64,000 nucleotides of DNA from Acidimicrobiia bacterium (GCA_027494135.1 JAOSJK010000012.1:1044795-1108794), one strand, 5' to 3'. Shown: positions 17,855 to 36,574, counted from the first letter of the stretch. Numbers and translations: made by a program. Notes: generated from the letters alone by a model not told the origin.

Positions 17855-17914
17855 TCCCGGAGTTGGTCCCGGGATCACTCCCGGAGTTCGTCCCAGTTCT
17901 GGTCCCGATCCGGG
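17855..17914. repeat. Array A: five tandem 12-bp TCCC repeats
   Basis: Five consecutive 12-mers start with TCCC: TCCCGGAGTTGG, TCCCGGGATCAC, TCCCGGAGTTCG, TCCCAGTTCTGG and TCCCGATCCGGG. They fill the gap between the minus-strand gene starting at 17805 and virD4 at 17991. The same 12-bp period recurs at 20238, 30122 and 34450. They probably bind a regulator or partition protein encoded by the element. Confidence 0.75.
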
Positions 17915-17990
17915 GCGAGGCCCAGGCATCGGGTGGGCGTGATGCAGCCGGGTCAGCGCTCTGCGGAGCCGCCCGGGTGGGGGCGGCGAC

Positions 17991-20192
17991 GTGGTCCTCG
18001 TGGCCCTCGGCGGCATCGCCACCGGTGTCGGTGTCGTCGTGTGGGCGGGAGCGTGGCTCGCCGCATTGCTGGTCGGGGGCCGGGTGCGGGGCGGACTGGG
18101 CGACTGGTTAGCGGCGGCCGGCCGGTTGGCGTCGGACCCGGCCAATCCGACCGCGGCGTGGGGCCAACAGGCGACGGGTCTGCCCGGCCCGGTGCTGTAC
18201 TGGGCGTGCACGACGGCGGTCGCGGTCACGGCCGGCGCGGCGGTGGCCGGGTTGGTGTGGGTCTGGCGTCGCTGGTCGGTGCCGTCACGGTCACGGTTCG
18301 GGGTGCCTGCCGATGCCCGGGTGGCGCGGGCCCGGGACGTGCGCCCGTTGACGGTCCCGGCTTCGGTCCCGCCGTCGGGCCGGTTCCTGTTGGGGCGGAT
18401 GGCGCCCCGTGGCCCGCTGCTGGCCACCGAGGACCGCGAGCGTCACCCGATGTCGGGTCGGCGTGCGGCGCACACCCAGGGCGACCGGGGGTCAGTGGCG
18501 TTGATCGGGCCGACCCGGTCGGGCAAGACGGTATTGGCCTCGGCGGGCATCGTCGGCTGGGACGGGCCGGTGGTGGCCCTGTCGGTGAAGCGGGACCTGT
18601 ATGACACGACCGCGGCGGCTCGGGCCCGTCGGGGTGAGCTGGCGGTGTTCGACCCGTCGGGGGTCACCGGGTTGCCGACGGCGCGGTGGACGCCGCTGCG
18701 CGACGTGACGACGACGTCGGGGGCGTTGCGGGCCGGTCGGGCGTTGGCCCAGGCGATCCCCCGTAACGGGGTGACCGGCGGGGACTTCTGGGCGTCGCAC
18801 GGCGAGACGCTGACGTCGGCGTACATGTCGCTGGCGGGTCTGTCCCAGCTGCTGCCGGGCGACGGCGGCCAGGTGAGGGAGCCGTTGACGATCGGACGGT
18901 TGGCGAGCTGGGCGTACATGCACGTCGGCATCACCGACCCGGTCGTCAACGAGCTGGTCCGCCTCGGCCTCGACGAGCGCCGGCCCCTGGAGGTCCGCCT
19001 GCTGGCCAAGGACGCCATGACCAAGCTGATGGCCTTCGAGGGCGAGGACCCCAGGATCCGAGCCAGCATCTATGCCACCGCCCGGCTGGCGTTCGAGGCG
19101 TGGACCGAACCGTCGGTGGCGCATTCGGCGTCGCTGGACCCGCGGGCCAGCTACTCCGCCGACGAGATCTGGGAGCGCACGCCCCGCTTCGTCGATCTCG
19201 AGTGGCTGATGGACGGCGACGCACCGCAGGCCAACACCTTGTATCTGACGGCGCCGGCAACCGAGTTCGCCCGCCTCGCCCCCGTGCTGGGTGGGCTGCT
19301 CGGTGATCTGCGCGAGCAGATCCACGCCTGGGACATCGCCGGGCGCCGGCTCACAAAGCCGCTCCTGGTGGTGATCGACGAGGCGGGTCAGCTCGAGCTG
19401 CAGTGGCTGCCCGAGGAGGTGTCCACGATCGCCGGGCTCGGCGGCCTGTTCGTGACCGGCTGGCAGTCCCGGGCCCAGATCAACCACCGCTACGGCGGTC
19501 TCGCCGACGCGGTGCTGGGCGGGCACCGGTCCAAGATCATCTTCAACGGCACCGACGATCCCTCGACCCTCGACTACCTGTCGCGGGTGGCGGGCACCGA
19601 GCACGTGGCCCAGCGGGGCTGGTCGGCCGACACCGGCAGCGGCCGCAAGACGGTCTCCGAGCACGCCCAGCGTGAGGACCTGCTCCCTGCGCATGTGATC
19701 CGCCAGATGCGCCGCCAGGAGGCGGTCCTGTTGCACGGCACCCTGCCGCCGGTGCACCTGCGGATGGTGCGCTGGTGGGAGGACCGCCACCTCGCCGCCC
19801 TGGTTCCGACCGGCCCCGACGGCAAGCCCGCCCCGCCACCGGCGGACGGGACCTGCCCGCTGCGGGAGGGTCGGCGGGGCGAGGTCAGCCCGGTGCTGGA
19901 GCCGACCGTCATCACCGAGTCCGTCGGGCACCTCCCCAACCCGCGGTTCCAGCGCAGCGAACCTCCCACCTCCCGACCCGCCGGTGCTCGACGCCCCGCC
20001 ATGAGGCCGAGCGGGCAGACCACGCTCGACTTCACCACCGCTCCCGTGGCCCCGCGGGAGGCCGCCAACCGCGTTGCCGGCACCTGCGAGCGCTGCGGGA
20101 CACGCCTCGGGGTGGGCGCGGGCACCGTCTCACGCTTCGGTGGCCGGGACGTGCTGCGCTGCCACCCCGGCTGCCCGCCGATCTCGCCCTGA
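17991..20192 (+). CDS. VirD4/TraG-type coupling protein
   Basis: 733 residues, uninterrupted. Two N-terminal transmembrane segments (ALGGIATGVGVVVWAGAWLA and AVAVTAGAAVAGLVWVW) precede Walker A LIGPTRSGKTVLASAG (near residue 170). Walker B LLVVIDEAGQLELQWLPEE is near residue 465, and a TraG-type all-alpha region lies between. A C-terminal CxxC-x-CxxxC-like stretch (CERCGTRLGVG ... CHPGCPP) may bind zinc. Coupling proteins bring the relaxase-DNA complex to the VirB4-type channel. The GTG start lacks a strong ribosome site; a slightly different start is possible. It is transcribed from the repeat-array intergenic region. Confidence 0.87.
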   Translation: MVLVALGGIATGVGVVVWAGAWLAALLVGGRVRGGLGDWLAAAGRLASDPANPTAAWGQQATGLPGPVLYWACTTAVAVTAGAAVAGLVWVWRRWSVPSRSRFGVPADARVARARDVRPLTVPASVPPSGRFLLGRMAPRGPLLATEDRERHPMSGRRAAHTQGDRGSVALIGPTRSGKTVLASAGIVGWDGPVVALSVKRDLYDTTAAARARRGELAVFDPSGVTGLPTARWTPLRDVTTTSGALRAGRALAQAIPRNGVTGGDFWASHGETLTSAYMSLAGLSQLLPGDGGQVREPLTIGRLASWAYMHVGITDPVVNELVRLGLDERRPLEVRLLAKDAMTKLMAFEGEDPRIRASIYATARLAFEAWTEPSVAHSASLDPRASYSADEIWERTPRFVDLEWLMDGDAPQANTLYLTAPATEFARLAPVLGGLLGDLREQIHAWDIAGRRLTKPLLVVIDEAGQLELQWLPEEVSTIAGLGGLFVTGWQSRAQINHRYGGLADAVLGGHRSKIIFNGTDDPSTLDYLSRVAGTEHVAQRGWSADTGSGRKTVSEHAQREDLLPAHVIRQMRRQEAVLLHGTLPPVHLRMVRWWEDRHLAALVPTGPDGKPAPPPADGTCPLREGRRGEVSPVLEPTVITESVGHLPNPRFQRSEPPTSRPAGARRPAMRPSGQTTLDFTTAPVAPREAANRVAGTCERCGTRLGVGAGTVSRFGGRDVLRCHPGCPPISP

Positions 20193-20237
20193 GCCGGGAC
20201 CCGGGAGAAGCTTGCCCACAGGCAGCTGTGAGACGAA

Positions 20238-20285
20238 GCGCGTTCGGGAGTGAGATCGGGAGCGCGGCCGGGACCAAGTCCGGGA
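20238..20285. repeat. Array B: four 12-bp TCCC repeats, inverted orientation
   Basis: Read on the minus strand the units are TCCCGGACTTGG, TCCCGGCCGCGC, TCCCGATCTCAC and TCCCGAACGCGC, with exact 12-bp spacing. They sit between the virD4 stop (20192) and the start of the ArdC-N-like gene (20310), where an operator would act on the latter. Confidence 0.7.
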
Positions 20286-20309
20286 CCTGCGGTCGTCACC
20301 GTGGCCCCC

Positions 20310-22719
20310 ATGGCCATCAACGGGGAACGGATCGCCTTCGCCACCTTCCAGGCCATGGCCGCCCACCTCGACGCCTGGGCGGCCACGACCCTGGCCGACC
20401 CCGATGGCTGGTCCCAGGCGCTGGTCGACTCGCAGTCGTGGCTCGACTATTCGGCCCGCAACCAGATCCTGCTGGCTTCCTACGGGGCGGACGGCCCGGT
20501 CGCAGGGACCGAGACCTGGCGGCTGGTGCCATCGACCACAGAGGGGCGGGGCTGCGCCGTGCGGGCCGGCGAGCATGGCTACCCGGTGCGGGTGCCGGTC
20601 ACCACCGGCGGCACCGAACCTGACCCGTACCTGGGCGGGCACCGCTCCACCCGGGCCGCGGTCGAGCGGTGGGAGTGGCGGCCCGTGTTCTCCATCGCCC
20701 AGCTCGCCCGTCGACCAGCTCCCGACAGCCTCATCCCCGCCGAGCTCCCCGCCACCCTCACTGGCCCCGACGCCGAGGCCGAGTTCCTGGCCGCGGTGCG
20801 CAGGGTTGCCACGGCCACGGTCCGGGGCCGGCTCCCCCGCTCCGACGCTGCTCACCAGGTCCTCACCGAAGCCGCGGGGCGGCTGCGCCGCTCGGCGAAG
20901 CGGCCCGAGCTGGAGCCGGTGCTGCGCGACCAGGTGGCGTGGCTGGTCGCCGGCCGAGTCGGGATGGCCGCCACGGATCGGCCGCCGCGGTTCGATCCGG
21001 CCGGGCTGGCACCCAGGGAGCGGTGGGAGCGGCTCGCCGACGTATTGGAGCCGGCCCGCAAGCTCACCGCCGCGCTCGGTGTCGCGGTCGGGGTCGACCT
21101 GGTCGCCTCGCCGCTGCCGCGCATGGAGATCGTCGACGACCGGGTCGTGCCCGCCGGTCGACGCCATCGGCTCCCGGCGGCGTCGCTCGAACAGCTCCCG
21201 ATCGGCCGGTGGGTCACCGTCGGGCCCTACACGCCAGCGGAGTGGGCCGCCCGTGGCGAGCACGCGGCCGGCGCGGGCGCCTACCTGCGGTTGAACAAGA
21301 CCGCGTACCTGGTCGCGGTCGAGACCGGTGACGGGGCCGCGTGGCGGCTCGAGGATGTCGCCAGCCGCACCGGGCACGGCCTGCTCGCAACCGGGACCGC
21401 GGCCGACCTCGACGACGCCCGCGCCGCCGCCGTCGCCACCGTCCGCTCCCGGTACCCCGCGCTCGCCGCCCCGTCGACCGAACCCACCGCGGCCGCCGCC
21501 GAGTCGGGGGTCGGGCCGGCGGGGACCGGCGGGGTGTGGGAGCAGATGCCCGGCGCCGGTCGCACGCCAGCCGAGATGCGCCGCCTCGACGACGACGTGA
21601 CCCTGTACGTGATGGCCGGGCCCGGAGGCCGCTGGCAACCGGCCATCCACACCGCGGCCACCGGTGTGCTCGAACGCCTCCCCCTCCAAGCCAGCATCGA
21701 CGAGGCACGAGACGCCGCCGAGCTCGCCGGACGCAACACCCGCCGGGCCGCCGCCATCGCGGATCCCGCCCGGGCCGACACCGCGCTGGCCGCCTACGCC
21801 GACAGCGGCGCCTACGACCGTCGCGAGCTGGCGGCCTTGATCGGACACCGTCTCGACACCGACGACCGCCAGCACGTCGAGAAGGCAACGCCCGCGGAGC
21901 TGGTCGAGCTGCTCGGCACCGCCGGGTTCAGCCCCGCCACCACCGTCGCCGTCCTCGCCGCCGAGGACCTACACGCCCACACCGTCGCCGGGCTGCTCCC
22001 CACCATCGGAGTTCCCATGCCCGACGCCATCCGCGTCCTGCACGACCGATGGGACCTTCCCCGGTCGCCGCCGCCGAAGCGCTCGGCGCCTCCGCGACTG
22101 AGATGCGCGAAGCGGGCTGCACCCCTGTCGAGATCATGGCGGCCCGGCCCCGGGACGTCCTGCGTACCTTGCCCGAGGACCCCCACCTGTGGGTACTGGC
22201 CGCCGGGACCATGGCCGTCGCCGGGCACCCCACCAGCACGGTCGTTCGGCACCTCGTCGCCCACGCCCCCTCCCCGGACGCGTTCGCGGCCGGACTCTCG
22301 GCTGTCGCCGACGCCGATGATGGCTTGGCAATCGCCGCCCGCGAGCACGCCCACCCCGACCAGCTCGCCGCCGCGTCGGAGGTCTACGGGCTCTCCCCAC
22401 CGACACCGGCGCGTTGCTCGCTGGCGTCGCTCCCGCCGGTGTCGTGCTCGACACGCTCACGGCTCGCTGCGGCGGCGACACCGCCACGACCACTCGGATC
22501 GCCACCGACACAGGGATCAGCCAGGCCGACATCGACAACTGGACTCAGCCCGCCGCACCCGCGTCGGTCACCGCCATCCGCGTCGGCGTCGACGCCGACA
22601 CTGCCAGCCTCCTCGCCTCGCTCCCACCGCCGGGACCGGCGACCGAGAACGACCCGGTCCGGCTCCTCGACGCCCTCGAGCCCGGCATCGAACCGACCGT
22701 TCTGGAGCCAGCCCCATGA
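20310..22719 (+). CDS. Large protein with ArdC-like ssDNA-binding N-terminus (frameshifted)
   Basis: About 800 residues with shifts near 22060 and 22395. Residues 5-95 (FATFQAMAAHLDAWAATTLA ... WLDYSARNQILLASYG ... TWRLVPSTTEGRGCAVRAGE) follow the pattern of the ArdC N-terminal ssDNA-binding domain. No HExxH is visible later. The rest is helical and repetitive in alanine, and the C-terminus has HTH-like segments (TATTTRIATDTGISQADIDNW). ArdC-type proteins protect incoming single-stranded DNA from restriction. ATG 20310 is chosen; GTG 20301 is an alternative. The stop overlaps the next start (ATGA). Confidence 0.6.
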
Positions 22720-23114
22720 CCACCCATCCGTTCACCAGCCAGGACGAGCCCGGCGAGCCGCTGGCGGAGGGCGGCAACTGGCTGCTCGATCTCGTGGCCG
22801 CCGTCGACCATCTCCGTCGAGGCCACCGGCCCGGCCTCACCGTGTGGGACGCCCTCGAAGAAGCCCTGCGGTGGCGACTGCCACGGGCTGACACCGAGGC
22901 CCCATGGGACGAGCCCGACCCGCTGGCCGACACCCTGCGTTCCTTCCTCGACCACGGCGGCACCCCGGTCGCCCAAGAGGTGCAAGCCGCGGTCCGCGAC
23001 TGGGTCACGGCCGCAGCCGACCGTTACAACCGAGGATGCTGCTGGCCCCACCCGCAGCCTCGGCGAGGGTTCCCACCTCCGCTGCTGTCCGCAGCCGACC
23101 ACGAGGACAGCTGA
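22716..23114 (+). CDS. Hypothetical protein of the conjugative element
   Basis: 132 residues, coupled by ATGA to the ArdC-N-like gene. It is acidic and helical (LAEGGNWLLDLVAAVDHLRR, LTVWDALEEALRWRLP) and ends in a Pro/His-rich tail with two cysteines (RGCCWPHPQP). No family is recognised. Co-translation with the upstream gene suggests a shared role in transfer or establishment. Confidence 0.6.
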   Translation: MTTHPFTSQDEPGEPLAEGGNWLLDLVAAVDHLRRGHRPGLTVWDALEEALRWRLPRADTEAPWDEPDPLADTLRSFLDHGGTPVAQEVQAAVRDWVTAAADRYNRGCCWPHPQPRRGFPPPLLSAADHEDS

Positions 23115-23184
23115 ACACGGATCGACTCCACCGGAGCGTGCTGCGAAAAGCGCGACGGTCTGGATCAGGGGGCACCATGGGATC

Positions 23185-23579
23185 GTGGCTTGGTGGAGCT
23201 GGCTCGTCATCGGCGTCGCCGCGATCGCGGCGTCGTGGGCTGCGCTCGTCGTCCTGGCGGCACGGCTCCCTGACGGAACACTCAAAGACCTGTCCGCGTT
23301 CCTGCCCGCGGCGCGACGACGGTTCGCCGGCTCCGAGCGGATCCGAGAGTGCCCCGGCGCGCCAGGATCGCCGTGGGAATCGCGCTCATCTGGGTGCTGT
23401 CGCCCATCGACCTGATCCCCGAGTTCCTCCCCGTCATCGGACCACTCGACGACGTCGTGGTCGTCGCGCTCGCGTTGCGCTACGCAGCCCGCCAGGTCCC
23501 CCGATCGGTGCTCCTCGAGGCGTGGCCCGCCAACCCCTCCATCATCGAGCGCCTCCTTGGACCAGAGTTGGCCGCCTGA
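23185..23579 (+). CDS. DUF1232 (YkvA-like) membrane protein (frameshifted)
   Basis: GTG 23185 follows a G-rich ribosome site. It has an N-terminal membrane helix (SWLVIGVAAIAASWAALVVLAA) and a short linker (LKDLSAFLPAARRRFAG). A one-base shift near 23345 leads into the DUF1232 core ALIWVLSPIDLIPEFLPVIG then PLDDVVVVALALRYAAR. The SPIDLIPEFLPVIGPLDD signature is unmistakable. About 131 residues in all. The function of the family is unknown; it lies between transfer genes and the metal/redox operon. Confidence 0.8.
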
Positions 23580-23650
23580 CAGGAACGTGTTCGGTGCGAG
23601 ACACGAGCGGCGGGTCGCTGTGTGCCAGTGCCCGTCGGGTGCAGCGGCGA

Positions 23651-25003
23651 TCAGAGCATCGAACCGAGGTCGGATCCGACCGTGGGGTAGGCGGCGGTCA
23701 TCGATTTCAGCTGTCGGGTGGTGAGGCCGAGCTTGATCGCGAGCCCGAAGAAGTTGATGAGCTCGCCGTACTCGGGGCCGAGCAGGTGGGCGCCGACGAC
23801 CGTGTCGTTGGCAGTGTCGACGAGGATCTTGGTGGCGGCGGTTGTCTCACCGACCCGGTAGTTCGAGTACCAGCCGCTGGTGTCGTTGTAGCGGACATCC
23901 ACGTTGATGCCGGCTGCTGCAGCTTGGTCTTCGAGGAGGCCGACGCGGGCCAGCTCGGGGATGGTGAACACTGCCGTGGGGACACCGGCGTAGTCGGGCA
24001 CCGTGGTTGTGCCCTTGAGCATGTTCGATGCGGCGACCTTGCCCTCGAAGACCGCTACCGGTGTCAGTGGCCTGCCGGCGGAGTTGGCAGCGTCACCTGC
24101 GGCGTACACCGCTGGGTTGGTAGTGCTCTGAAGGTGGCCGGCGACGGTCACCCCTGCGGCGGTGTGGGCGACGTTGGCGGCGTCCAGGTCGAGCTTGGAC
24201 AGCTGGGGAACGCGCCCCGCCCCGTGGACGACGAGATCGGTCTCGATGTGGGCAGGGGTGCCGGCGGTGTCAAGGGTGACTCGGTAGCCGGGTCCGGCTG
24301 GCTCGACGGCGGTGATGGTCGTGCCCGGCCGCACGTCGACGCCGGTGTCGGCACTTCGGGTCACCAAGAGGTCGACCAGGTCAGGGTCGAACCCCTTGAG
24401 CGGGCGGACGCCGCGGTCGATGATCACCGGTCGGGCTCCGGCCCGGGCAGCGATGTGGGCGAACTCGAAGGACACGAACCCGCCGCCGACGAAGAGCACG
24501 CGGCTCGGGAGTTCTTCGAGCTCGAGGAAGGCGGTGCTGTCGATGAGGTGCTCGTGGCCGGGGAACTCCAAGGGGCGGGGCCGAGCGCCGGTGGCGATCA
24601 GAAAGTGGGCCGACTCGTAGGCAACATCGTCGACGGCGAGTCGGTGCTCGGCCTCGAAGCGGGCGGTGCCGTGCAACGTCTGGACACCGTTGCGGGTGAG
24701 ACCAGCCTCCATGTTCTGGGGAACCGGGTCGGTGAAGCCGCGCTTGTGCTTCATCAGGTCGGCCCAGTTGATCGTCATGCCGTTGGCGTCGATGCCCTTG
24801 CCGGCCATGAGACGGGCGCTGTCGATGATCTCGGCCCCGCGGCGCAGGATCTTCTTCGGGTCACAACCCCGCAATGCGCAGGTGCCCCCATAGGGAAGTT
24901 CGTCGACGATGGCGACTCTCCGTCCTTGCGAAGCGCACTTGTTCGCGGCCGCGGCGCCGGCCATGCCTGCGCCGATGACGATGAGGTCGAAGGTCTCGGT
25001 CAT
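23651..25003 (-). CDS. FAD/NAD(P)-dependent disulfide oxidoreductase (glutathione/mercuric reductase superfamily)
   Basis: 450 intact residues from ATG 25003. FAD-binding LIVIGAGMAGAAAANKC is at the N-terminus, with the redox-active pair C42-xxxx-C47 in GGTCALRGCDPKK. An NAD(P)-binding RVLFVGGGFVSFEF lies mid-protein, the second FAD motif is AVYAAGDAANS, and a dimerisation domain ends the chain. There is no N-terminal heavy-metal domain and no C-terminal Cys pair, so it is not a standard MerA. It is the third gene of a MerR-controlled operon (thioredoxin-like, membrane protein, reductase) and may regenerate a low-molecular-weight or protein thiol under metal stress. Confidence 0.82.
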   Translation of the reverse strand: MTETFDLIVIGAGMAGAAAANKCASQGRRVAIVDELPYGGTCALRGCDPKKILRRGAEIIDSARLMAGKGIDANGMTINWADLMKHKRGFTDPVPQNMEAGLTRNGVQTLHGTARFEAEHRLAVDDVAYESAHFLIATGARPRPLEFPGHEHLIDSTAFLELEELPSRVLFVGGGFVSFEFAHIAARAGARPVIIDRGVRPLKGFDPDLVDLLVTRSADTGVDVRPGTTITAVEPAGPGYRVTLDTAGTPAHIETDLVVHGAGRVPQLSKLDLDAANVAHTAAGVTVAGHLQSTTNPAVYAAGDAANSAGRPLTPVAVFEGKVAASNMLKGTTTVPDYAGVPTAVFTIPELARVGLLEDQAAAAGINVDVRYNDTSGWYSNYRVGETTAATKILVDTANDTVVGAHLLGPEYGELINFFGLAIKLGLTTRQLKSMTAAYPTVGSDLGSML

Positions 25004-25248
25004 CACGTCATTCCGTCGCGGCGGATCGGTCGATCGCTCGTATCGCACGTGCGGTCGTGGCGGTGGCGACGCCGATCGAGCTGCCACGCGACAGCCACGA
25101 CGACGCACAGACCGGCGGCGGAGACCACCGTCAACGGGCCAGCCGCTGCCAGGGCCACACCCCCGACCAGGCCGGCGATGAGGGTCATCGCGCCGCAGCA
25201 CACGATCGCGGCGATCAGGGCGGCCGGCGCGAGATCCCGTTCACGCAT
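25003..25248 (-). CDS. Small two-helix membrane protein of the MerR-regulated operon
   Basis: 81 residues. Two hydrophobic helices follow: one with an embedded Cys-Cys (LIAAIVCCGAMTLIAGLVGG), then LTVVSAAGLCVVVAVAW. The tail is Arg/His/Cys-rich (RRRHRHDRTCDTSDRP). The CC within the first helix recalls small mercury-transport proteins (MerF/MerT type), but length and sequence do not let me name one. ATG 25248 overlaps the end of the upstream gene, and its stop overlaps the reductase start (TGATG), so all three are coupled. Confidence 0.65.
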   Translation of the reverse strand: MRERDLAPAALIAAIVCCGAMTLIAGLVGGVALAAAGPLTVVSAAGLCVVVAVAWQLDRRRHRHDRTCDTSDRPIRRDGMT

Positions 25249-25534
25249 CGAGGATCGCTTCGAGCTGCTCAGTGGTGGGCGAGCCGGCGGGGCCGTCGGG
25301 GGACTGATACACGCGACACGCCAGCCCAAAGGTTTCGTCCCCCGTCGCAAACGGATCATTGCCATTCACCAGGATCGTCGGTGACCCGCGGAACCGGGCC
25401 GCTTCGGCCTCAGCCGGCGTGGAAACGACCCGCCGCTCGACGTGCAGGCCACGGCGGTACGCGATCGCGTCGAGCCGTTCGGCAGCGATCCTCCAGTTCG
25501 GGCAATCGTCGAAGTACAGCAACTCAACCCTCAT
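25241..25534 (-). CDS. Thioredoxin-like small protein of the MerR-regulated operon
   Basis: 97 residues from ATG 25534. LLYFDDCPNWRIAAERLDAI is the N-terminal signature of a thioredoxin-fold family often found in actinobacterial mercury operons; it has a single cysteine (C11) rather than CxxC. The cis-Pro region is RGSPTILVNGNDPF, and a further cysteine appears in FGLACRVY. It is first in the operon and directly downstream of the MerR-type promoter. Confidence 0.75.
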   Translation of the reverse strand: MRVELLYFDDCPNWRIAAERLDAIAYRRGLHVERRVVSTPAEAEAARFRGSPTILVNGNDPFATGDETFGLACRVYQSPDGPAGSPTTEQLEAILDA

Positions 25535-25575
25535 GGTTCGTTCCCTTCTCAGGCGTGGAATGCCACCCGCGCGCT

Positions 25576-25607
25576 ACCGTAAACCTTCCATTGAGATGGA
25601 AGGTCAA
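25576..25607 (-). promoter_or_regulatory. MerR-type promoter and operator
   Basis: A perfect dyad (arms ACCTTCCAT at 25583-25591 and ATGGAAGGT at 25596-25604, four bases between) lies within a minus-strand promoter. The -35 is TTGACC (25607-25602) and the -10 is TTACGG or TACGGT (25582-25576). The spacer is 19-20 bp, the over-long spacer that MerR proteins correct by twisting DNA. It faces the thioredoxin-like/membrane/reductase operon. Confidence 0.85.
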
Positions 25608-25619
25608 GGGAACTCGAGC

Positions 25620-26027: not shown

Positions 26028-26077
26028 AGCGCGGGCCAGCCCATCGTTGAAGATGATGGCCTCCACTTCGGGGATTG

Positions 26078-29000
26078 TCAGAGGCCGAAGGCGTCATCGA
26101 GTGTGAGCTGTCGGGTTCCGGATCCTGTCTCGAAGGTCCACCGTTCGTCGTCTATCGCCTGCGCATGCTGGACGGCTTCGTCGATGGCGCCCATGAGCGC
26201 GGCGCGCTCGACGGCCTGGCCGGCGTCGGTAGCGCCGGCGCCGAGCGGCGTGCGCTCGGTGATTGCCCATCGTGCACGGTGGTCGGCGATGTCGGCGACG
26301 AGCTGTTCGATGGCCTGGTCGACATGGGAGTCGCCCGGCGGGTGCAGCTGGGCGGCGAGCGTGAGGAGCCACGGCTCGCGTCCTGCGGCGGCGGTGGCGA
26401 GCGCTGGGCGGGACGCGCCGGCGAGCTGGTCGAGGAGCGGTTCGGGGTCAGGGCCGACGGGCCCGGTGGAGAGGGTGTGGTTGATCTGGGCGTACTCGAC
26501 GACGTGGGGCCAGTGCTCGAGGATCCAGCGGCGCCGATCGCCCTGGGTGGCGAGCGCGTCTTCGAGGAGCCGGGAGGTTTCGTCGGGGTCGAGGGTGCCG
26601 CCACGGCGGAGCCGGTCGATGAGCTTGCGGTGGTCCGCCGGCGCGGTGGCGAGCATGCCGTCGAGGTCGTCCCGGCGGGCGTGGAGCTCTTGGCGGGAGC
26701 GGGTCCGAGTGGTGGGCACGCTCGGCGCGCTGGTGTGGGTGTCGAGCCATATCCGAGCGGATGCCAGCGAACCTGAGGCCTGATCCCACACCGCTCGGTC
26801 GACCGGGTCGGTGTGGTCGGGGCCGGTCGGCCGGTCGGGGTCGTCGATGCCGTGTCGGAGCCGGTGGGCGGCGAGGTCGCGGACGGCGTCGTCCCAGACC
26901 TGCACGGCTGCTGGCCGTTCCGTGGGACGGGGACCGAGGAGCGTGATGAGCCATTCGGGCTGGTCGGCGGCGAGGCGGTGGCGGGCGCGATCGACGGCCA
27001 GTCGGGCGGCGTGTCCGTAGATGTGGCGGTCGGCGGGTTGGACGCCGTGGTCGGCGAGGTGCTGGTTCCACGCTTCGAGCTGTTGGTGGGCGTCGGTGGT
27101 GAGCCGGTCGAGGGTGGCGGTGGCGGTCGGGGTGAGGGGCGGGGTTCGGGGTGGCGGGGCTCGACGATCTGGGTGTCGCCCCAGCCGAGGCTGCGGGTGG
27201 CGGTGCGCCCGTCGGCGGCCACGAAGGTGACCTGCACGGTGCCGGCAGTGTCGTCGAGGGCGGTGATGGTGCCGATGTTGCGTCGGTCGAAGGCCTTGAC
27301 GGTGTGGCCGATGGCGACGTGGCGGGCGGTGTGCTCGGTTCGGGCGAGGCGGTCGCGGAGGACCTGGGGGTGGTGGCCGACGAGGTGGGTGGCGTGAGCT
27401 TCGACGGTGCGGGAGTGGACGGCCCAGCCTTCGAGGGTGACCAGGTCGAGGGTCGTCGCCGCCTGCTGGATGGCCTGGGCGTGGGGGTCCTGGGTGAGGG
27501 CGAGGTCCTTGCGGCGGGAGGTGGTGAGTCGCCCGAGCAGCTCGTGGTCGGTGTCGGGTTGCTCGCCGGGGAGCGGGATGAGGCTGTCGTGGCGGACCAG
27601 ATCCTGGTCGAGGGCGTCGAGTTCGGGGGCGGTGACGATGAGCCAGTTCGAGGCCCGGCCGCGGGAGAGGACGAGGTAGCCGGCTTCGCGGTAGAGCCCG
27701 TCGAGGCCGACGGTGATGGCGAGGTCCCAGGTGCCGCCTTGGGCGCGGTGGGCGGTGGAGGCGTAGGCGTGTCCGATGGCGTCGGCGGCGAGGTGGTCGG
27801 GGGTGAGGACGACGTCGAGGTTGTCGTGGTCCATGCGTAGGACCAGGCCGGCGTCGCATGTGCCGGTGAGGGTTCCGGTCTGGCCGTTCAGTACCGCGAC
27901 CTGGTGCCCGGTCGGGGTGGTGGCGCGGTAGTCGTTGGCGCGGATCACGAGCCGCTCACCGACCGCGAGGGTGCCGTTCGAGCCGTCGATGGCCGGGCCG
28001 AGCACCCCGTGGTCGAGGAGCGCGCGGCGGACGGCGGTGTTGAGGGCGTCGACGGTCTGGTTGGTGCCGGCGAGAAGCACCGGGACGGTGCCGGCGTGGT
28101 GGGCGGCCAGCCACCGGTCCACGGCCTCGCCGATCATGGCCGGTCGGTCGCCAGCGACGATGACCCGGCCGTGGGTCTGGTAGGCGGCGACGGCGCGGGC
28201 GACGTGGCCGTCACGCAGCTCGGCCAGGGCCACGCGTTCCCAGCTGTGGTCCTGGCGGCGGTTGACGGACAGTTCGGCGACGGTGGCGGCGGGGTCGGTG
28301 GCGAGGGCGGCGAACCCGCCGCCAGCGGTGACCTCGGGGAGCTGGTGGTGGTCGCCGACGAGAAGCACCCGGCCGCCGGCTTCGACCACGGTGGCGGTGA
28401 GGCGGTCGAGGTCACGGAGCCCGGCCATTGCGGCCTCGTCGACCACGAGCAGGGTGCGGGCGTCGGGGCGGTCGTAGCCGCGGGCCCAGGAGCCGAGCCG
28501 GCGGTGAATGGTGGCCGAGGCGATGTGGGCGTCGGCTTGGAGCTCGTGGGCAGCCTTGGCCGAGGGCGGCCCCAAGGACCTGGTAGCCGGCGGCGGCGTA
28601 GACCTGTCGGACGGCGTCGAGGGTGAAGGTCTTGCCGGTGCCGGCGGGGCCGACCATGACGCTGATGGCGTCGAGGGCGCGCCCAGCATGCGGACTGCGG
28701 TCTCCTGGTCGGCGCCCAAGGTTGGGAGCCGCTCGAGCACGCCCTCGACGTGTCGGGCGTCGATGGCGCTGCGGGTATGGCGTGTCGGCGCGGCCCGGTC
28801 GAGGAATCGGCGCTCGACCTCGAGCAGCTCAGTGGTCGTCCATCGTGGCGGGCCGTCGCCGGCGACGGGAACCAGTTGGGTGGAGGCGAGCACGCGGGCG
28901 GTCATGCGGTCGACGGTGTGGGCGGTGGCACCTTCCCGATGCGTGCGGCGACGGCTTGGACGAGGTCGGGTCGGGTGAAGGTCGAGTCGTGCTCGGTCAG

Positions 29001-30098
29001 GGCTCGAGCGACCGCGGCGATCCACTCCTCGGGGCAGACGGCCCGGTCGGCTACGGCGCCGGTGTGGGGATCGCGGCTGGGGAGCCGCCAGATCTCGTCG
29101 ATGCCAGGCGCGTGCCGGTCGGTGGTGGAGGCGATGAGGGCATCGGCGTGCTCGGGTCCCCAGCCGACGGCGTGGGCTGCGGCCTTCCAGGCGGCGTCGA
29201 AGCGTTCGTGTTCAGCCTCGGGCTTGTCGCGGCGGGTGGCGAGCACGGCGGCTTGGCGGCCGGCCGCGTCGTCAGGGGTGCCGGTGGCGGCCAGCCAGGC
29301 ATCGACCTCGGCGGCGCGTTTGGAGAACTGGTCACACAGGGTCTGGGGGACGCCGGCGATCTCGGGGACGTGGCGTCCGGCTCGCCACTGGAGGCCGAGG
29401 CGTTCGGTGAGCTCGCCCCGCAGCACGGTCTGGAACAGCTCGCCGGCGGCCCGCACGGCCCGGTACAGCTCGGGATGCACGAACGCGCCCCACCGGCCGT
29501 CGGGGCCTTCGACCAGGTTGGCGACCAGGGTGTGCCAGTGCAGCAGCGGGTCACCAGCGCGGGAGGTGCGATGCCGGAACGTGGCGGCCACCACGCCGCG
29601 GCCGGGCAGGACCCTGATGCGGGCGGCGTCGGCGGCTGCGGGGTCGCGGGCGGCGAGGTCGTTGAGGTAGGCGACGTCGCCCGAGCCGCGCCGGACCCGG
29701 ATCACTTCGCGCTCCAGCCACGACACGGCCTCACGCACGGCGATCTCGCCGGCCTCGATGATGGCGCCCTGGACCCGGGGGTCGTCGGAGACGGCATAGA
29801 GGACACTGACCGACTTCGGGGTCTTGAAGGTGAGGTCGAACCCGGGGACCCGGCGGACATGGGTTCGGACGGTGGACCCGTCCGGGGTCAGGCCGCCCGA
29901 GCCGGGGGCGAGGCCGGCGAGCACGGCGCGCAGGTCGTCGGGGTCGACCTCGCCGGCCAAGCCGAGCCGTTCGGCTCCCGCGCCGATCCACAGGCCGGCG
30001 GCCTCGCCGGCGCCGGTGTAGTAGTCGTCGAGGGACTGGGCGACGCCGGAGAGCTGGTAGGCCTCCTGGCCGACCCGGAGCTTGGCGATCGACAGCAC
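26078..30098 (-). CDS. MobF-family conjugative relaxase with C-terminal RecD-like helicase (frameshifted)
   Basis: About 1,340 residues. The N-terminal TrwC/MobF domain has tyrosines in LDDYYTGAGE (Y26/Y27) and the metal site H176 with HWH 187-189 in LLHWHTLVANL. The helicase part has Walker A VGPAGTGKTFTLDAV, Walker B TLLVVDEAAMAG, GDHHQLPEV and the motif VI-like STAHRAQGGTWD. The tail is helical and ends RQLTLDDAFGL. Frame changes lie near 28925, 28680, 28580 and 27150; each side matches the family. GTG 30098 sits at the edge of repeat array C. The enzyme nicks at oriT, stays bound to the 5' end and unwinds the transferred strand. Confidence 0.88.
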
Positions 30099-30121
30099 CC
30101 GGCCAGCGAACGGGACCGGGG

Positions 30122-30157
30122 TCCCGGAGTTGGTCCCGGCCCCGGTCCCGGCGCCGC
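30122..30157. repeat. Array C: three 12-bp TCCC repeats upstream of the relaxase
   Basis: TCCCGGAGTTGG, TCCCGGCCCCGG and TCCCGGCGCCGC are in exact 12-bp register, 24 bp upstream of the relaxase start. Two further TCCCG units lie at 30211 and 30222 with an 11-bp step. They are in front of both the relaxase and the divergent small gene. Confidence 0.7.
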
Positions 30158-30235
30158 GAAATCCTCGTGCACCACCGCCGGTGATTATCTGTGTGCGCGA
30201 TCCGGTTCAGTCCCGGCTCGGTCCCGATCGCAGCG
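30158..30235. other. Candidate oriT region
   Basis: This short stretch lies between the relaxase start and the divergent gene. It holds a local inverted repeat (CACCACCGCCGGTG), then the only AT-rich patch nearby (GTGATTATCTGTGTGCG), flanked by TCCC repeats. MobF oriT sites usually lie next to the relaxase gene with an inverted repeat before nic. No nic consensus can be proven from sequence; assignment is by position. Confidence 0.4.
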
Positions 30236-30276
30236 AGGCCCTATCCGGGCGGGCTCGGGGGCGCGACACTGCGGAG

Positions 30277-30651
30277 GTGGAGTCGGGGACAGCGCTCGAC
30301 GCGGGTGGGGTGGACGGTCGGTTCCTCGCGGTGGACGAGCAGGGCGTCGGGTTGCGGGCGACGTGGCGTCCCGAGCGGGGGTTCGTGAACGTGAGCCTGT
30401 GGCGGGGCGATCAGTGTGTCGAGACGTTCCATCTCACGCCCGCCGACATCAGCGCCTTGGTGGGCTTTCTGGTGTCTCGGCTGGCGACGCTGGCCCCGGC
30501 GGCTGGTGCCAGGCTGCGGGTCGTCGAGGACCCGCCCGCTGTCCCGCCCAGCGGGCGGGACCCGACCGAGCCCCGGCGTGACACGGTGGCCGTGCTCCGC
30601 TCGGGCGTGGCGGCGCAGCTTCGGCGGGCCGCGCAGCGCATCGCGCCGTAG
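30277..30651 (+). CDS. Hypothetical protein next to oriT
   Basis: About 124 residues from GTG 30277 (alternative GTG 30181 would extend through the TCCC repeats). The N-terminal half is a beta-rich domain (FLAVDEQGVGLRATWRPERG, FVNVSLWRGDQCVETFHL). A helix follows (ADISALVGFLVSRLATLAP), then an Arg-rich tail. The family is unknown. It is divergent from the relaxase, close to the putative oriT. Confidence 0.5.
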   Translation: MESGTALDAGGVDGRFLAVDEQGVGLRATWRPERGFVNVSLWRGDQCVETFHLTPADISALVGFLVSRLATLAPAAGARLRVVEDPPAVPPSGRDPTEPRRDTVAVLRSGVAAQLRRAAQRIAP

Positions 30652-30729
30652 ACGGCAGGGTTCGGCTCTACCTGGCCTGCGGGGCGGGCCGAGCCGCCTC
30701 GGGTTGTCACGGCCCCGGCGGCGCAGGGG

Positions 30730-30915
30730 CTACCCGGTGGCGAGGGCTTCGACCTCGGCGACGGGTACGTGGAGGTAGGAGCGGTCGTCGCGGAAGGCGT
30801 GGAGCTCGCCCCGGTCGATGAGCCGGTAGAGCTGGGCGAGGGTGAGCTCGAGCCGTTCGGCGGCCTCGGCGGCGGGCATGAGGGGCTGGTCGGTGGCCGT
30901 AGCCATGGGGGTCAT
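30730..30915 (-). CDS. Small MerR/excisionase-like helix-turn-helix protein
   Basis: 61 residues, ATG 30915 (ATG 30906 also possible). LMPAAEAAERLELTLAQLYRLIDRGELHAFRDDRSYLHV is the helix_turn_helix_17 excisionase/AlpA-type fold: a winged HTH recognising DNA with the wing RDDRSYLHVP. It starts 9 bases after the stop of the 30925-31101 gene, so the two are co-transcribed. Probably a small regulator of the element. Confidence 0.7.
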   Translation of the reverse strand: MTPMATATDQPLMPAAEAAERLELTLAQLYRLIDRGELHAFRDDRSYLHVPVAEVEALATG

Positions 30916-30924
30916 GGTAGTGGT

Positions 30925-31101
30925 TCAGATCTCGGGGAGGTCGGGCCAGATTCGGCGCAGGAGGGCGTCGTGGAGGTCTTCCCAGGCGATCTGTTCGGCG
31001 TAGTGGTCGTGCTCCGCGGCCAGGGCGGCGGCGCTGATGAGTGCGGCGGCGATGTCGAGGGCGTCGTCCCGGCTGAGCGTGATCCCGTCGTCATCGGGCA
31101 T
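30925..31101 (-). CDS. Small acidic hypothetical protein, leaderless
   Basis: 58 residues from ATG 31101: MPDDDGITLSRDDALDIAAA followed by a helix with AAEHDHYAEQIAWEDLHDALL. The family is not recognised. A strong promoter (-35 TTTACA, 17 bp, -10 TACAAT) ends only 6 bases before the ATG, so its mRNA should start at or next to the start codon. Confidence 0.6.
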   Translation of the reverse strand: MPDDDGITLSRDDALDIAAALISAAALAAEHDHYAEQIAWEDLHDALLRRIWPDLPEI

Positions 31102-31157
31102 GTAGAGATTGTATCGACACCCTTGCCGTCTGTAAAGACTTTCTATACAGTAGCGGT
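31102..31157. promoter_or_regulatory. Divergent promoters with leaderless starts
   Basis: Minus strand: TTTACA, 17 bp, TACAAT, then CTCTAC and the ATG of the 31101 gene. Plus strand: -10-like TATACA followed by GTAGCG and the GTG at 31158; its -35 (TTGCCG) is weak with a short spacer. An inverted repeat (CTGTA ... TACAG) spans the centre. This 56-bp gap is far more AT-rich than the rest of the window and looks like a control switch for the small HTH genes on both sides. Confidence 0.65.
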
Positions 31158-31373
31158 GTGGCGTTGCCCGAGCATGACGAGGTGGTGGGCGCGGTGGAGG
31201 TGGCGCGCCGGCTCGGGGTGGCACGGGCGACGGTGGACCAGTGGCGCCAGCGATCGGTGCTGCCCGATCCGCGGTGGCAGGTGGGGGGCCGGCCGGCATG
31301 GTCGTGGGCCGAGGTGCGGGCGTGGGCCGAGCGCACGGGCAGGCTGGACTCATCAAAGGCGCCTCCGCCGTAG
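31158..31373 (+). CDS. Small HTH regulator (AlpA/MerR-like)
   Basis: 71 residues from GTG 31158, immediately after a -10-like TATACA. VVGAVEVARRLGVARATVDQW with RWQVGGRPAWSWAEVRAWAE forms a compact winged HTH of the AlpA/excisionase type. It is divergent from a second small HTH gene set and probably binds the intergenic inverted repeat. Confidence 0.65.
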   Translation: MALPEHDEVVGAVEVARRLGVARATVDQWRQRSVLPDPRWQVGGRPAWSWAEVRAWAERTGRLDSSKAPPP

Positions 31374-31414
31374 GCATCTCGAGACCGTCCCGTCGGAGGT
31401 GTTGTTCCTACGGG

Positions 31415-31949
31415 TCAGCGGGGCCGGTGGTGGCGGGGTCGCCGCTGGCGTGGACTGTGGCGGCACGGGTTGGGGGTCGGATCGGGTTCGAGGGGCGGGA
31501 CGTAGCGCTCGAGGGCGAGGAGCTGCTGGGCGGCGTCGTGGGCGGCGGCGGGGTGGGGGTAGGGGCCTTGGAGGGTTGCCCACCGGTCGACTTCGTAGCT
31601 GTCCATGATCCCGTACCAGCGGATCGGTCCGGTGGGGCTGTCGGCGCCGAACTCGACGATGTCGCCGGCAGCGAGCTGGTGCGGGAGCCGCCACCCTCGG
31701 CCCGAGGCGGGATCGGCCGCCCACAGTTGGCGGGCCCAGCCGCCGGGGGGCGGTGGGGTCGGGCCAGGTGGTGGCGACCCACACGGTGTGGCCGGGGCCG
31801 GTCGGGACGGGGAGGTCGATGATGGCGCCGTCGGGGGCGCGGAGACGGTGTCGTCCGTACCGGTTCCAGTCGTAGGCCGGTTCGCCGGGTCCGTCGGGTT
31901 GGCGGGCGGTTGGGGGCGTGGGGTCGGGTTGGTGGCGTCGTCTGAGCAT
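31415..31949 (-). CDS. Hypothetical protein of the leading region (frameshifted)
   Basis: About 178 residues; ATG 31949 has AGGAGG upstream. The N-terminal part (MLRRRHQPDPTPPTARQPDG ... GAIIDLPVPTGPGHTVWVAT) and the C-terminal part (AAGDIVEFGADSPTGPIRWYG ... AQQLLALERYVPPLEPDP) are in different frames. They join near 31745 in a six-G run. The family is not recognised. Its leader carries a partial copy of the CACGGCAC-hairpin repeat (32013-32044). Confidence 0.55.
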
Positions 31950-32012
31950 CGGGTGAGCCTCCTGGTCAGATGGCTCGCGACGCTACGAAGCCGGTTGTCT
32001 CGGGTTGCCTGG

Positions 32013-32044
32013 AACGGCACCCGCCCGCAGGGCGGCCACGGCAC
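32013..32044 (-). repeat. Leader repeat IV (partial): two CACGGCAC-type boxes around a hairpin
   Basis: AACGGCAC and CACGGCAC, 24 bp apart, flank the hairpin CCGCCC-GCA-GGGCGG. Same layout as the fuller copies at 33077, 34248 and 36366; located 64-95 bp upstream of the 31949 start. Confidence 0.6.
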
Positions 32045-32130
32045 GCCCGCCGGCCGACCGGCACCGCGGACGCCACCCGGCGGCCTGCCACGTGGCGCCC
32101 GGCGCGTGCCGGGGGTCGGGTCTGGCGGCG

Positions 32131-33047
32131 TCAGGCGGCGGCCTCGTCGTCGGCGCTGGTGTGGTGGCCGGCGAGGGTGTTGAGGTGGTCGACGGCGGCT
32201 TGGGCGCGGCTGGCCACGGTGATCAGGGCGCGGGCGTCGGTGCGCAGGACGCGAAGCCAGCCGGCGAGGTAAGCGGCGTGGTCGGTGCGGGTGACGGCGG
32301 AGAGGCCGGCTTGGGCGCACCACATGGCGGCGCCGAGCTCGGCGACGAGCTCTTCGGCGGCGTAGCTGTCGGTGCCGAAACGGCCGGTGAGGTCGCGGGC
32401 GAGGCGGCTGTAGTGGCCGGTCCAGTGGACGGTTTCGTGGGCGCGGGTGCCGTAGTAGTGGGCGGCGGTGTCGAAGGCGTCGAGGGCGGGGAGGTGGATG
32501 GTGTCGGTGGCGGGCTGGTAGCAGGCCCGGTTGCCGCCTTCGATGACGGTGGCGGCGATGGCGGCGAAGTAGTCCTCGGCGGCGCCGATCCGCTCGGGGG
32601 TGTCGCGCTCGGCGAGGTGGTGGGCGCGTCGGGCGATGACCTCCTCGGCGCCGTCGCACTGCTCGGCGGCGAACACGGCATAGGCGCGGGCCAGCAGCCG
32701 GGGGCGGCGTGCCCGGTCGCCGCCGGTGTCGTCGTTGTCGTCGCTGGGCTTGGGGGTGACGGGCTTCCAGAGGATGACCTGGGTGGCCTTCTCGCCGCGG
32801 CGGACCTGGGCGCCGTGGCGTTGCCAGGCCCGGTAGGTGGCCCAGGTGCCCGAGGTCAGTCGCGGGCGGTGGCGACCATGGCCAGCCACAGGGCGTTGGC
32901 GCCGCGGTAGGGGCGGCCGTCGACGCTGGTGGGGGTGCCGGCATCGGCGAGGGTGTGCCAGGGCATGCGCCACGCTCCGGCGGCGCCGGTCTCGATGTCG
33001 GCGATGAGTTGGTCGGTGATCTGGGCGAACAGGTCCTCGGCGTGCAT
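32131..33047 (-). CDS. ardC: ArdC-family antirestriction protein (frameshifted)
   Basis: About 305 residues. The N-terminal ssDNA-binding domain starts MHAEDLFAQITDQLIADIET and includes WRMPWHTLADAGTPTSVDGR and YRGANALWLAMVA. One missing base near 32858 joins it to TSGTWATYRAWQRHGAQVRRGEKAT. The C-terminal domain carries the zinc metalloprotease motif HETVHWTGHYSRLARD. ArdC proteins bind single-stranded DNA and protect an incoming element from host restriction. ATG 33047 has GAAGGGA upstream. It lies in the leading region, oriented toward the putative oriT, behind a long hairpin-rich leader. Confidence 0.87.
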
Positions 33048-33076
33048 GGCGGGTTCCCTTCGGGTCGGGTCCGGTT

Positions 33077-33228
33077 GGGGCTTCGCCCCTACGGGGCGTC
33101 CTGGCCCGCCGCCCTGAGCGCCGCTGTCAACCCGAAGGGCTTGGCCCCGGAGCTTGCGGAGGGGCTTGACAGCGGCGCGGCGGCGGGCGACACGGCACCA
33201 CCGGCCCACCGGGCCGGTGCCACGGCAC
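33077..33228 (-). repeat. Leader repeat I upstream of ardC
   Basis: Three modules. (a) GC hairpin GGGGCTTCGCCCC with CTACGGGGCG (33077-33098). (b) Long stem with TGTCAACCC (33125-33133) and GGGGCTTGACA (33161-33171), enclosing CGAAGGGCTTGGCCCCGGAG. (c) CACGGCAC boxes at 33191 and 33221 around a perfect hairpin CACCGGCCC-ACC-GGGCCGGTG. The element sits between the WhiB stop and the ardC start. It has no T run, so it is not a typical intrinsic terminator. Confidence 0.75.
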
Positions 33229-33256
33229 ACCCGCCCAGCCCCGCGAGCCGGTGGGG

Positions 33257-33688
33257 TCAGTGCCGGGTGGGAAACAGGGCTCGGCCGCGGCGTTCGACGA
33301 CGCCGAGGCGCACGGCTCGTTCGAGGGTCTTGTAGGCGGTGGCGGTGGGGAGCCAGATATGGTCGAGGAGCTGGTCGAGGGCGGGCCGGTCGGGGTCGGC
33401 GTCGATGAGCAGGTCGTAGAGCTCGTCGTCGCTGATGCGGGACGCCGGTCCCGGTGCGGGGTCTGGCCGTGGTGGTGGCGTGGGGCGTTCGTCGGCGGCG
33501 AGCCCGCCCCAGACGCCGTACTCCTCCCCGGTCGCGACCGCGTGGGCGGCGCAGGCGGCCCGGACCGGGCAGGCGGCGCAGGTGGTCTTGGCGGCGGCGA
33601 CCGCGGCTGGGTGGGCGTCATAGAACAGGGCCGGGTCGGTGCCGCGGCAGGCGGCCTGGGTGCGCCAGGCCGCCGGGCCGGCGGTCAT
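33257..33688 (-). CDS. WhiB-family iron-sulfur transcription factor
   Basis: 143 residues, intact. Cysteines C14, C37, C40 and C46 (ACRGTDPALFYD ... TTCAACPVRAACAAHA) would hold a [4Fe-4S] cluster, followed by the GVWGG turn (58-62). The C-terminal extension (ISDDELYDLLIDADPDRPAL ... TAYKTLERAVRLGVVERRG) looks like an added winged helix. WhiB proteins are actinobacteria-specific redox-sensing regulators that bind the main sigma factor; element-borne copies may switch transfer genes. It starts 5 bases after the stop of the upstream HTH gene. Confidence 0.88.
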   Translation of the reverse strand: MTAGPAAWRTQAACRGTDPALFYDAHPAAVAAAKTTCAACPVRAACAAHAVATGEEYGVWGGLAADERPTPPPRPDPAPGPASRISDDELYDLLIDADPDRPALDQLLDHIWLPTATAYKTLERAVRLGVVERRGRALFPTRH

Positions 33689-33693
33689 GGCGG

Positions 33694-34148
33694 TCAGGGG
33701 GCGTCGTAGGCGGCGGCCAGGTAGGCGGGGAGCCCGCAGCGCTGCCGGTAGGTGAGCGGTGCCAGCCAGAGGCGCACGGCGATGGTGGTGCCGTGGCGGC
33801 GGATGATCCCAAACCGCTCCAGGCGGTCCAGGCTGCGCAACACTCGGGGGCGGAGGGGCCGAGGCCGAAGGTGCGGGCGATGTCGTCGATGGTCCAGGTG
33901 GAGGGGCCGTCGGCGGCGTGGCGGGCGAAGCGGTGGGCCATGGCCATGCCGATGGTGCCGATCGAGGGCGTGTACCAGACGAGAGCGTCGTCGCTGTCGG
34001 TGGCGATCGCGCCGGGTGCGCTCTCGACGATGGGGTCGCGCCAGGCGATCACCGTCACGGTGTCGCCCGCGCTGCGCAGCGGCTCGCCGTCGCCGTCGTG
34101 GGCGGGGTCGGTGGCGGTGTGCTCGGTGGTGGGGGTGGTGGTGGTCAT
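33694..34148 (-). CDS. Winged-helix protein of the leading region (frameshifted)
   Basis: 151 residues from ATG 34148. The protein opens with a Thr-rich disordered segment, then GDTVTVIAWRDPIVESAPGA and a helix pair (TIGMAMAHRFARHAA; STWTIDDIARTFGLG). Past a shift near 33850 it continues RVLRSLDRLERFGIIRRHGT and TIAVRLWLAPLTYRQRCG to TGA 33694. The middle is a winged HTH (IDDIARTFGLG ... VLRSLDRLERFGII). Probably a transcription regulator, in an operon with whiB. Confidence 0.65.
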
Positions 34149-34247
34149 CGGGGCTCCTTGGGGGTCGGGTGACCCAGCCCCAGGGGTCCGGCGGCTTCCC
34201 CGACCGACCTCGCCCCGGGGGCTGGTGTCGTGCCCGACCGGGTGGCC

Positions 34248-34409
34248 GGGCTTCGCCCTACGGGCGCCCGGGCCGGCGGCGACGCCGTGTCAACCCGAAG
34301 GGCTTGGCCCCGAGCTCGCGAGGGGCTTGACACGAGCGGCGGCGACGGCCCACACGGCACCCCCGCCGCAGGCGGGTCACGGCACCCGTCCGCAGGGCGG
34401 CCACGGCAC
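34248..34409 (-). repeat. Leader repeat II upstream of the winged-helix/whiB operon
   Basis: (a) Hairpin GGGCTTCGCCCTACGGGCG (34248-34266). (b) GTGTCAACCC (34287-34296) pairs with GGGGCTTGACAC (34322-34333) around CGAAGGGCTTGG. (c) Three CACGGCAC boxes at 34353, 34378 and 34402, separated by hairpins CCCGCC-GCA-GGCGGG and CCGTCC-GCA-GGGCGG. This is the most complete copy. Confidence 0.78.
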
Positions 34410-34449
34410 CGGCGGCCCCGACGAAACGGCCCGCCCAACCACAGGGAGG

Positions 34450-34485
34450 TCCCGGAGTTCGTCCCGAGATCACTCCTGACCGCTG
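34450..34485. repeat. Array D: three 12-bp TCCC-type repeats
   Basis: TCCCGGAGTTCG, TCCCGAGATCAC and the degenerate TCCTGACCGCTG. The first two match units of array A almost exactly. The array lies between the parB stop and the leader of the winged-helix/whiB operon. Confidence 0.7.
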
Positions 34486-36300: not shown

Positions 36301-36365
36301 CAACAGATGGGGCCTCTCGTTCGGATGCCGGGTGCGGTGGTCCCTGCCGGTCGGCCGGGACTCCG

Positions 36366-36522: not shown

Positions 36523-36574
36523 CGGCGCCTGCAGCCCCTCATCGCGGTCGAGCGCGGCGGACGAGAATGGGACG

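Follow-up and report, generated by a model that had tools for sequence, protein, structure and literature searches.

The 64,000-nucleotide stretch of Acidimicrobiia bacterium DNA analyzed here (GCA_027494135.1, JAOSJK010000012.1:1044795-1108794; hereafter the window, on C12, one of the 80 contigs that make up a 3.93-Mb genome) carries what looks like an integrated conjugative element, in which TCCC units at a strict 12-bp step form four arrays (A to D, Table 1). We consider it probable that these arrays are the iterated operators of a sigma-like master regulator, encoded by the element, that controls the timing of its transfer. Our candidate for this regulator is a gene divergent from virD4, which was not listed in the initial annotation of this DNA and which tracks the arrays.

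All four arrays are present where the initial annotation had placed them, those of A, B, and C being exact in both position and number of units. For array D the position and the first two units stood but the third TCCC unit did not, as it reads TCCT in the window, and TCCC in the closely related element of genome G345 (L083). The claim that unit sequences recur between arrays was also correct, as some whole units are shared, and arrays A and D are the only places with the two-unit word TCCCGNNNTNNNTCCCRRNNT. Across the 15 units the first three positions are always TCC, position 4 is C in 14, position 5 is G in 14, position 6 is G or A and the remaining six positions are variable. The spaced pair TCCCN8TCCC occurs 17 times in the window, compared to an expected 5.3 ± 2.5. 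Runs of at least three units, counted at lags of 6 to 30, number three at lag 12, one at lag 24 (a multiple of 12) and zero at all other lags, while shuffled versions of the window had a mean of 0.05 such runs and a maximum of one; two runs of at least four units are present in the window and none in 300 shuffles. The initial annotation had named equal frequency in the chromosome as the finding that would tell against an operator. No such simple picture emerged, as 22 matches to a degenerate 28-mer were found in the 3.93-Mb genome, six of which are arrays A-C, and among the other 16 those on C16, C34, C56, and at C1:1313k fall within relaxase genes belonging to other elements or adjoin them.

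The positions of the arrays are conserved in related elements, which supports the earlier suggestion of a shared operator. There are arrays at the positions of both A and B in G259, whose relaxase and VirD4 are 61% and ~60% identical to those of the window, respectively. The array A position is conserved in G259 (L091/L118), L104, L105, L108, L110, and L117, and an array at the 3′ end of virD4, as for array B, is also found in G259, L103, L105, and L108. The base preceding TCCC is mostly G, T or C, depending on the element. Arrays C and D are kept at the relaxase locus of G345 (93% identical). The G345 element stops matching inside the helicase gene (G345:C1 ~536132) and neither virD4 nor the divergent sigma-like gene was found in the G345 genome; it is therefore probably a deletion derivative whose arrays are left-overs. 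When genome contigs were scanned with VirD4, 16 loci were obtained, seven of which have arrays. The same search found no relative in viral contigs and only distant matches in plasmids, the best (42%) being to an Iamia plasmid (L119/L120, NZ_CP050949.1, carried by Iamia sp. SCSIO 61187). That plasmid is typed as “non-mobilizable” despite its annotated MobF relaxase, and the product of its sigma-like gene (WP_219945825.1) is annotated as hypothetical.

We scored co-occurrence at loci next to virD4, based on a profile of the divergent gene. Arrays and this gene were found together in all seven of the (mutually related) array-bearing virD4 loci for which upstream sequence is present: the window, L104, L105, L108, L110, L117, and L118/G259. 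In the nine virD4 loci without an adjacent sigma-like gene the arrays are also missing, except for a two-unit remnant in L111. L107, L109, and L111, which belong to the sister clade, have a distant sigma-like homolog elsewhere in the locus, and a GGTCGGGTGTGC 12-bp array is situated directly upstream of each of these homologs. The association was also found once starting from an array: G144 was picked for its GGGGAAC array near a relaxase, and the profile then located, at a distance of 1.5 kb, a sigma-like gene whose promoter likewise contains GGGGAAC units. Another search had returned relatives that have TCCC units in tandem; profiling revealed a sigma-like gene in none of them, and therefore many are probably plain tandem repeats. 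Searches with the sigma-like protein identified only the Iamia plasmid among plasmids and nothing among phages.

A 12-bp period is often found in the promoters of this very diverged protein family. Four homologs identified by protein profile only (L128, L129 with the Iamia plasmid, L130, and L131) were inspected after they had been found, and within 200 bp upstream of the start lag 12 was the strongest period in three (GGTGTGNGGTCC, CACGAC, and CGGTGAG), the exception being L131. Averaged over 13 non-redundant family members, z reached 3.64 for lag 12 and 2.04 for lag 24, and its magnitude stayed under 0.9 at every other lag. A phylum-wide search then provided 16 further homologs, for eight of which lag 12 was the top period, compared to 12 of 150 control upstream regions (p ~8e-5), and seven of which had z12 ≥ 2.5, compared to eight of the 150 (Fisher p 8e-5). 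Periods divisible by 3 bp are slightly over-represented in the controls, an effect related to codons, and comparison against them is therefore the fair one. The units mostly end 20-50 bp ahead of the start codon. A common CTGGTG...CACCAGGAGG hairpin was also noted upstream of the sigma-like gene's start in L146, L147, and L149, at a position that would cover its ribosome site.

While the step is fixed, the word is not. The own-promoter word of the sigma-like gene is GGGAC or GGGAG in the window, L104, and L117; GGGAAC in L105, L108, and L172; GGGAGG in L146, L147, and L149; GGTGAG in several members of family f20; CCGTGAGG in L137; GGTGTGCGG-like in L107, L109, L111, and L128; and CACGAC in L129 and Iamia. 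Further arrays of an element repeat its own-promoter word, as found for GGGAGGTC (L154, L156), GGGGAAC (L172), CACGAC (L129, Iamia plasmid), and GGGAA (L105/L108). Some of these arrays are inside relaxase open reading frames (ORFs), all at one linker (L154:8590, L156:8237-8327, L167:10040, L129:8041, and L119:24759); we had considered the arrays of Iamia/L129 and L154/L156/L167 to be in the relaxase promoter, but rejected this once they were located within the ORF. The array in L154, L156, and L167 encodes a Gly/Pro/Val linker (GPPVGPPA), while in the related relaxase of L129 and Iamia the array at the same linker encodes an Arg/Ala/Asp stretch (RAEDRAHSRARDRA). In L154, L156, L129, and Iamia (L119) the word in the ORF is that of the promoter of the element's own sigma-like gene; no sigma-like gene was found near L167. 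The peptide differs between these two relaxase groups while the 12-bp step and the match of the word to the promoter persist. We regard this comparison, although drawn from two relaxase groups, as the strongest single argument that selection acts on the DNA.

The assignment of the protein as sigma-like is based on fold. Models of L104 (pLDDT 80) and L147 (pLDDT 89) both retrieved sigma factors almost exclusively. Residues 45-138 of the L147 model superimposed on region 2 of RpoS (Z 9.6, 2.0 Å, 89 residues) and residues 161-223 on the −35-binding domain of SigD (Z 8.4, 1.8 Å, 61 residues), while residues 41-136 of the L104 model superimposed on domain 2 of sigmaE (Z 8.5, 2.7 Å, 93 residues). 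Both models have a region 2 fold of the sigma-70/extracytoplasmic function (ECF) type, and the L147 model also has a region 4 (−35-binding) fold, the assignment of which is less secure in the TCCC clade. With Foldseek alone, no hit reached E ≤ 0.001, and a PDB sequence search with A2 gave no significant match. Sequence profiles gave sub-threshold sigma matches in the distant family members and none in the near (TCCC) clade: TIGR02937 (sigma70-ECF) scored 21.7 and 25.1 bits, relative to a cut-off of 42.9, with no match for L104 or L109, and Pfam Sigma70_r2 matched only L130 (21.7, cut-off 24). We refer to the family as sigma-like rather than sigma. The protein of the window is ~55% identical to the intact L104 homolog, and its gene has an ATG at 17805 with a good ribosome site.

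We propose that a single copy of the 12-bp unit, whose core reads CGGGA[C/G] in the orientation of the sigma-like gene, would be one site for this protein. Protomers would bind head to tail, each occupying 12 bp via its region 4-like domain and in contact with its neighbors; the earlier idea that the 12-bp step favors cooperative binding is plausible. Arrays with more units would be bound more strongly and their occupancy would climb steeply with protein level. The predicted targets are the sigma-like gene itself, virD4, the gene at 20301, the relaxase, and the WhiB operon, so that transfer and establishment genes would be kept in step. Binding, its cooperativity and the sign of regulation are inferred here; coordinate, autogenous repression is the most likely mode, being the simplest because the units would cover the promoter and an array sits at the gene's own promoter.

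Several observations weigh against an operator role for the sigma-like protein. The TCCC clade is connected to sigma factors only by fold and intermediate relatives, with hidden Markov model scores below the curated cut-offs, and the window's own sigma-like gene is frameshifted (or mis-assembled). The loci in which gene and arrays co-occur are related to one another, and so their counts are not independent. G259 yielded no arrays at positions C and D, and the homologs L131, L143, L148, and L150 are without a clear array. There are also orphan arrays in G085, G023, and, in the same genome as the window, on C16, C34, and at C1:1313k, with no sigma-like gene in the stretches read; in these genomes, which were read in part, the reader could be encoded elsewhere. 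The arrays of G345 are likewise orphans.

The main rival to an operator protein is a working sigma factor whose own promoters have the arrays as clusters of −35 words (GGGAAC/GGGAC), with activation in place of repression. The −35 word of ECF sigma factors is GGAAC, which the GGGAAC of L105, L108, and L172 resembles; in addition, the protein models have both region 2 and region 4 folds and the sense of the array relative to the sigma-like gene is always the same in GGGA-type members. However, only ~20-28 bp separate the end of the proximal unit from the start codon in many members (L107, L109, L111, L128, L139, and L145, and arrays B and C of the window), a distance too short for a −35 element with its own −10. 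Inspection by eye revealed no common −10 word, certain arrays are located inside a relaxase ORF, and a single −35 requires no 12-bp tandem. We consider a sigma factor acting at these arrays unlikely, although it is the most likely of the alternatives.

The initial annotation had proposed ParB, WhiB, or the small helix-turn-helix (HTH) proteins as readers of the arrays. Homologs of these proteins were found only in the G345 element and, as no homologs of ParB, WhiB, or HTH_17 were found in the array-bearing G259, L104, L105, L108, L110, L117, L154, L156, L172, and L129 (several of them partial contigs), we rejected them. A role of the arrays as a partition site or accessory site of the origin of transfer (oriT), bound by ParB or an StbA-like protein, was also part of that annotation in its “partition/transfer site.” There is precedent in plasmid R388, where the stbDRs bound by StbA adjoin oriT and copies of their 9-bp word are also present in other maintenance promoters (PMC3098194), and array C is near a nick-like site. 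Yet among the array-bearing loci examined, G259 included, only the window and G345 have ParB, the arrays track the regulator gene even at loci without a relaxase in reach, and G112 has kept the nick-like site with no TCCC arrays there, leaving this role improbable.

That a small MerR-like/HTH_17 protein (e.g., 30730-30915) coats the arrays in the manner of BldC or RdfS is, in our estimation, quite improbable. BldC is arranged head to tail on direct repeats (PMC5859096), RdfS-type excisionases assemble into filaments on the DNA of integrative and conjugative elements (ICEs) (PMC11963761), and an HTH_17 gene is located near array C in the window. In addition, a GGGAGTARTTCC array at ~1500-1560 in L026 (G014:C22) closely precedes an ORF whose product resembles an HTH_17/excisionase protein, with no sigma-like gene within the 3 kb examined. 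Against this, the HTH_17 protein of the window has no homolog in the array-bearing loci except G345, the repeats bound by BldC are 9 bp long and rich in A+T, AATTXXXX(C) (PMC5859096), and RdfS showed no consensus motif (PMC11963761). Finally, although control genes have a mild excess at multiples of 3 bp and some arrays are in ORFs, it is very improbable that the arrays are functionless, low-information G+C-rich tandem repeats or coding four-residue repeats, given the sharp peak at only 12 and 24 bp in the promoter of one gene family, the lack of any arrays of the reversed word or at other lags in 29 relaxase loci, and a peptide that changes while the DNA word tracks the promoter.

Among known systems, the closest in design to the proposed one is StbA with the stbDRs of R388 (IncW), an element that also has a TrwC relaxase; its 9-bp repeats are spaced by 2 bp (an 11-bp step, TTGCATCAT) at the stbABC operon, short iterated repeats thus being present at the binder's own operon promoter and at other promoters of the element, and StbA acts on them in trans and restrains transfer (PMC3098194). 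Unlike the stbDRs, the arrays described here have a 12-bp step and a TCCCG core, with words that are unrelated to those repeats and change between elements, and the candidate reader has a sigma fold. The closest in presumed binding geometry are BldC, head to tail on direct repeats, and RdfS, in filaments on ICE DNA (PMC5859096, PMC11963761), but these are small MerR-like proteins, whereas ours is a two-domain sigma-like protein with a G+C-rich 12-bp unit. Neither a sigma fold nor a G+C-rich unit of 12 bp is a feature of StbA, BldC, or RdfS. Group 4 (ECF) sigma factors are alike in their region 2 and region 4 folds and in the resemblance of some array words to their −35 word, a likeness that is based on fold models and sequence; they differ in the very low sequence similarity, the N-terminal extension of our protein, and its tandem 12-bp sites in place of one −35/−10 pair.

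More broadly, the family may be a sigma-derived one of actinobacterial mobile elements and chromosomes whose members now serve, or double, as oligomerizing operator proteins, the −35 domain reading tandem 12-bp sites and the protein fixing the period while the word drifts along with it, even within relaxase coding sequence; for this wider proposal we see the case as evenly balanced. The iterated-operator design is already known, but to our knowledge the class of reader and a word that drifts at a fixed step are new; a limited literature search found no report in which an actinobacterial conjugative element is linked to both direct repeats and a sigma-like protein. If correct, the proposed operator system would give a first way into the regulation of conjugative elements in uncultured Actinobacteria of the Acidimicrobiia type, together with a simple rule by which a 12-bp array leads to its word, and the word to the regulator and its targets. 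If a sigma-type −35 domain does read tandem sites, this would show how an operator protein can arise from a sigma factor, and the family would offer a natural series of co-diverged pairs of protein and DNA word for the study of region 4 specificity.

Table 1. Arrays, associated genes and a candidate transfer site in the window.
Feature	Position	Strand	Details
Array A	17855..17914	+	Five 12-bp units TCCCGGAGTTGG TCCCGGGATCAC TCCCGGAGTTCG TCCCAGTTCTGG TCCCGATCCGGG; between divergent sigma-like gene (minus) and virD4 (plus)
Array B	20238..20285	-	Four 12-bp units TCCCGGACTTGG TCCCGGCCGCGC TCCCGATCTCAC TCCCGAACGCGC, read on minus strand; upstream of gene 20301
Array C	30122..30157	+	Three 12-bp units; ends 24 bp upstream of relaxase start
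Array D	34450..34485	+	Two TCCC units and third TCCT unit; upstream of minus-strand operon (gene 33618-34148 and WhiB)
Sigma-like gene, predicted array reader	17096..17805	-	Two frames: 17096-17740 and 17736-17805
VirD4/TraG-type coupling protein	17991..20192	+	Pfam T4SS-DNA_transf 1.1e-25
Conserved transfer-region gene, 3′ of array B	20301..23114	+	No Pfam match; homologs in G259, G112
TrwC-type (MobF) relaxase, downstream of array C	28902..30098	-	Pfam TrwC 9.4e-69
Operon downstream of array D	33257..34148	-	Gene 33618-34148; WhiB gene 33257-33688, Pfam Whib 8.8e-22
GGTGATTATCTGTGTGC	30180..30196	+	Upstream of relaxase; candidate nick region, separate from array C

The gene content of the element includes a tyrosine integrase (37710-38903), ParB, the WhiB operon, an ArdC/zincin gene, the TrwC relaxase, a helicase, VirD4, a HerA-like protein, a Toprim protein, and a type ISP restriction enzyme. 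The last of these, a restriction-modification enzyme in two overlapping frames (12117-16267), is element cargo. Genes at 17096-17805, 32131-33230, and 34560-36274 are split over reading frames; ParB, for example, is frameshifted in the window and has a single-frame match in G345. Such splits could be due to sequencing (long-read) indels or to decay of this copy, both being possible.

The sequence GGTGATTATCTGTGTGC is shared with G345 and G112 and, in a form that differs at two positions, with G259; its flanks are not conserved, and it is a candidate for the oriT nick region of these MobF elements. A repeat of ~160 bp, found via cross-matches to G345, is present in three copies (33077-33236, 34244-34409, and 36347-36523) that precede successive minus-strand genes and include a TGTCAACCCGAAGGGCTTGGCCCC...GGGGCTTGACA hairpin. 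A MerR regulator in the window adjoins a pyridine nucleotide-disulphide oxidoreductase, an arrangement that is mercury-resistance-like. Beside the integrase, at 39007-40895, a protein with a 5-hmdU DNA kinase helical domain adjoins a MazG_C protein, and these genes of the integrated element are base-modification-like.

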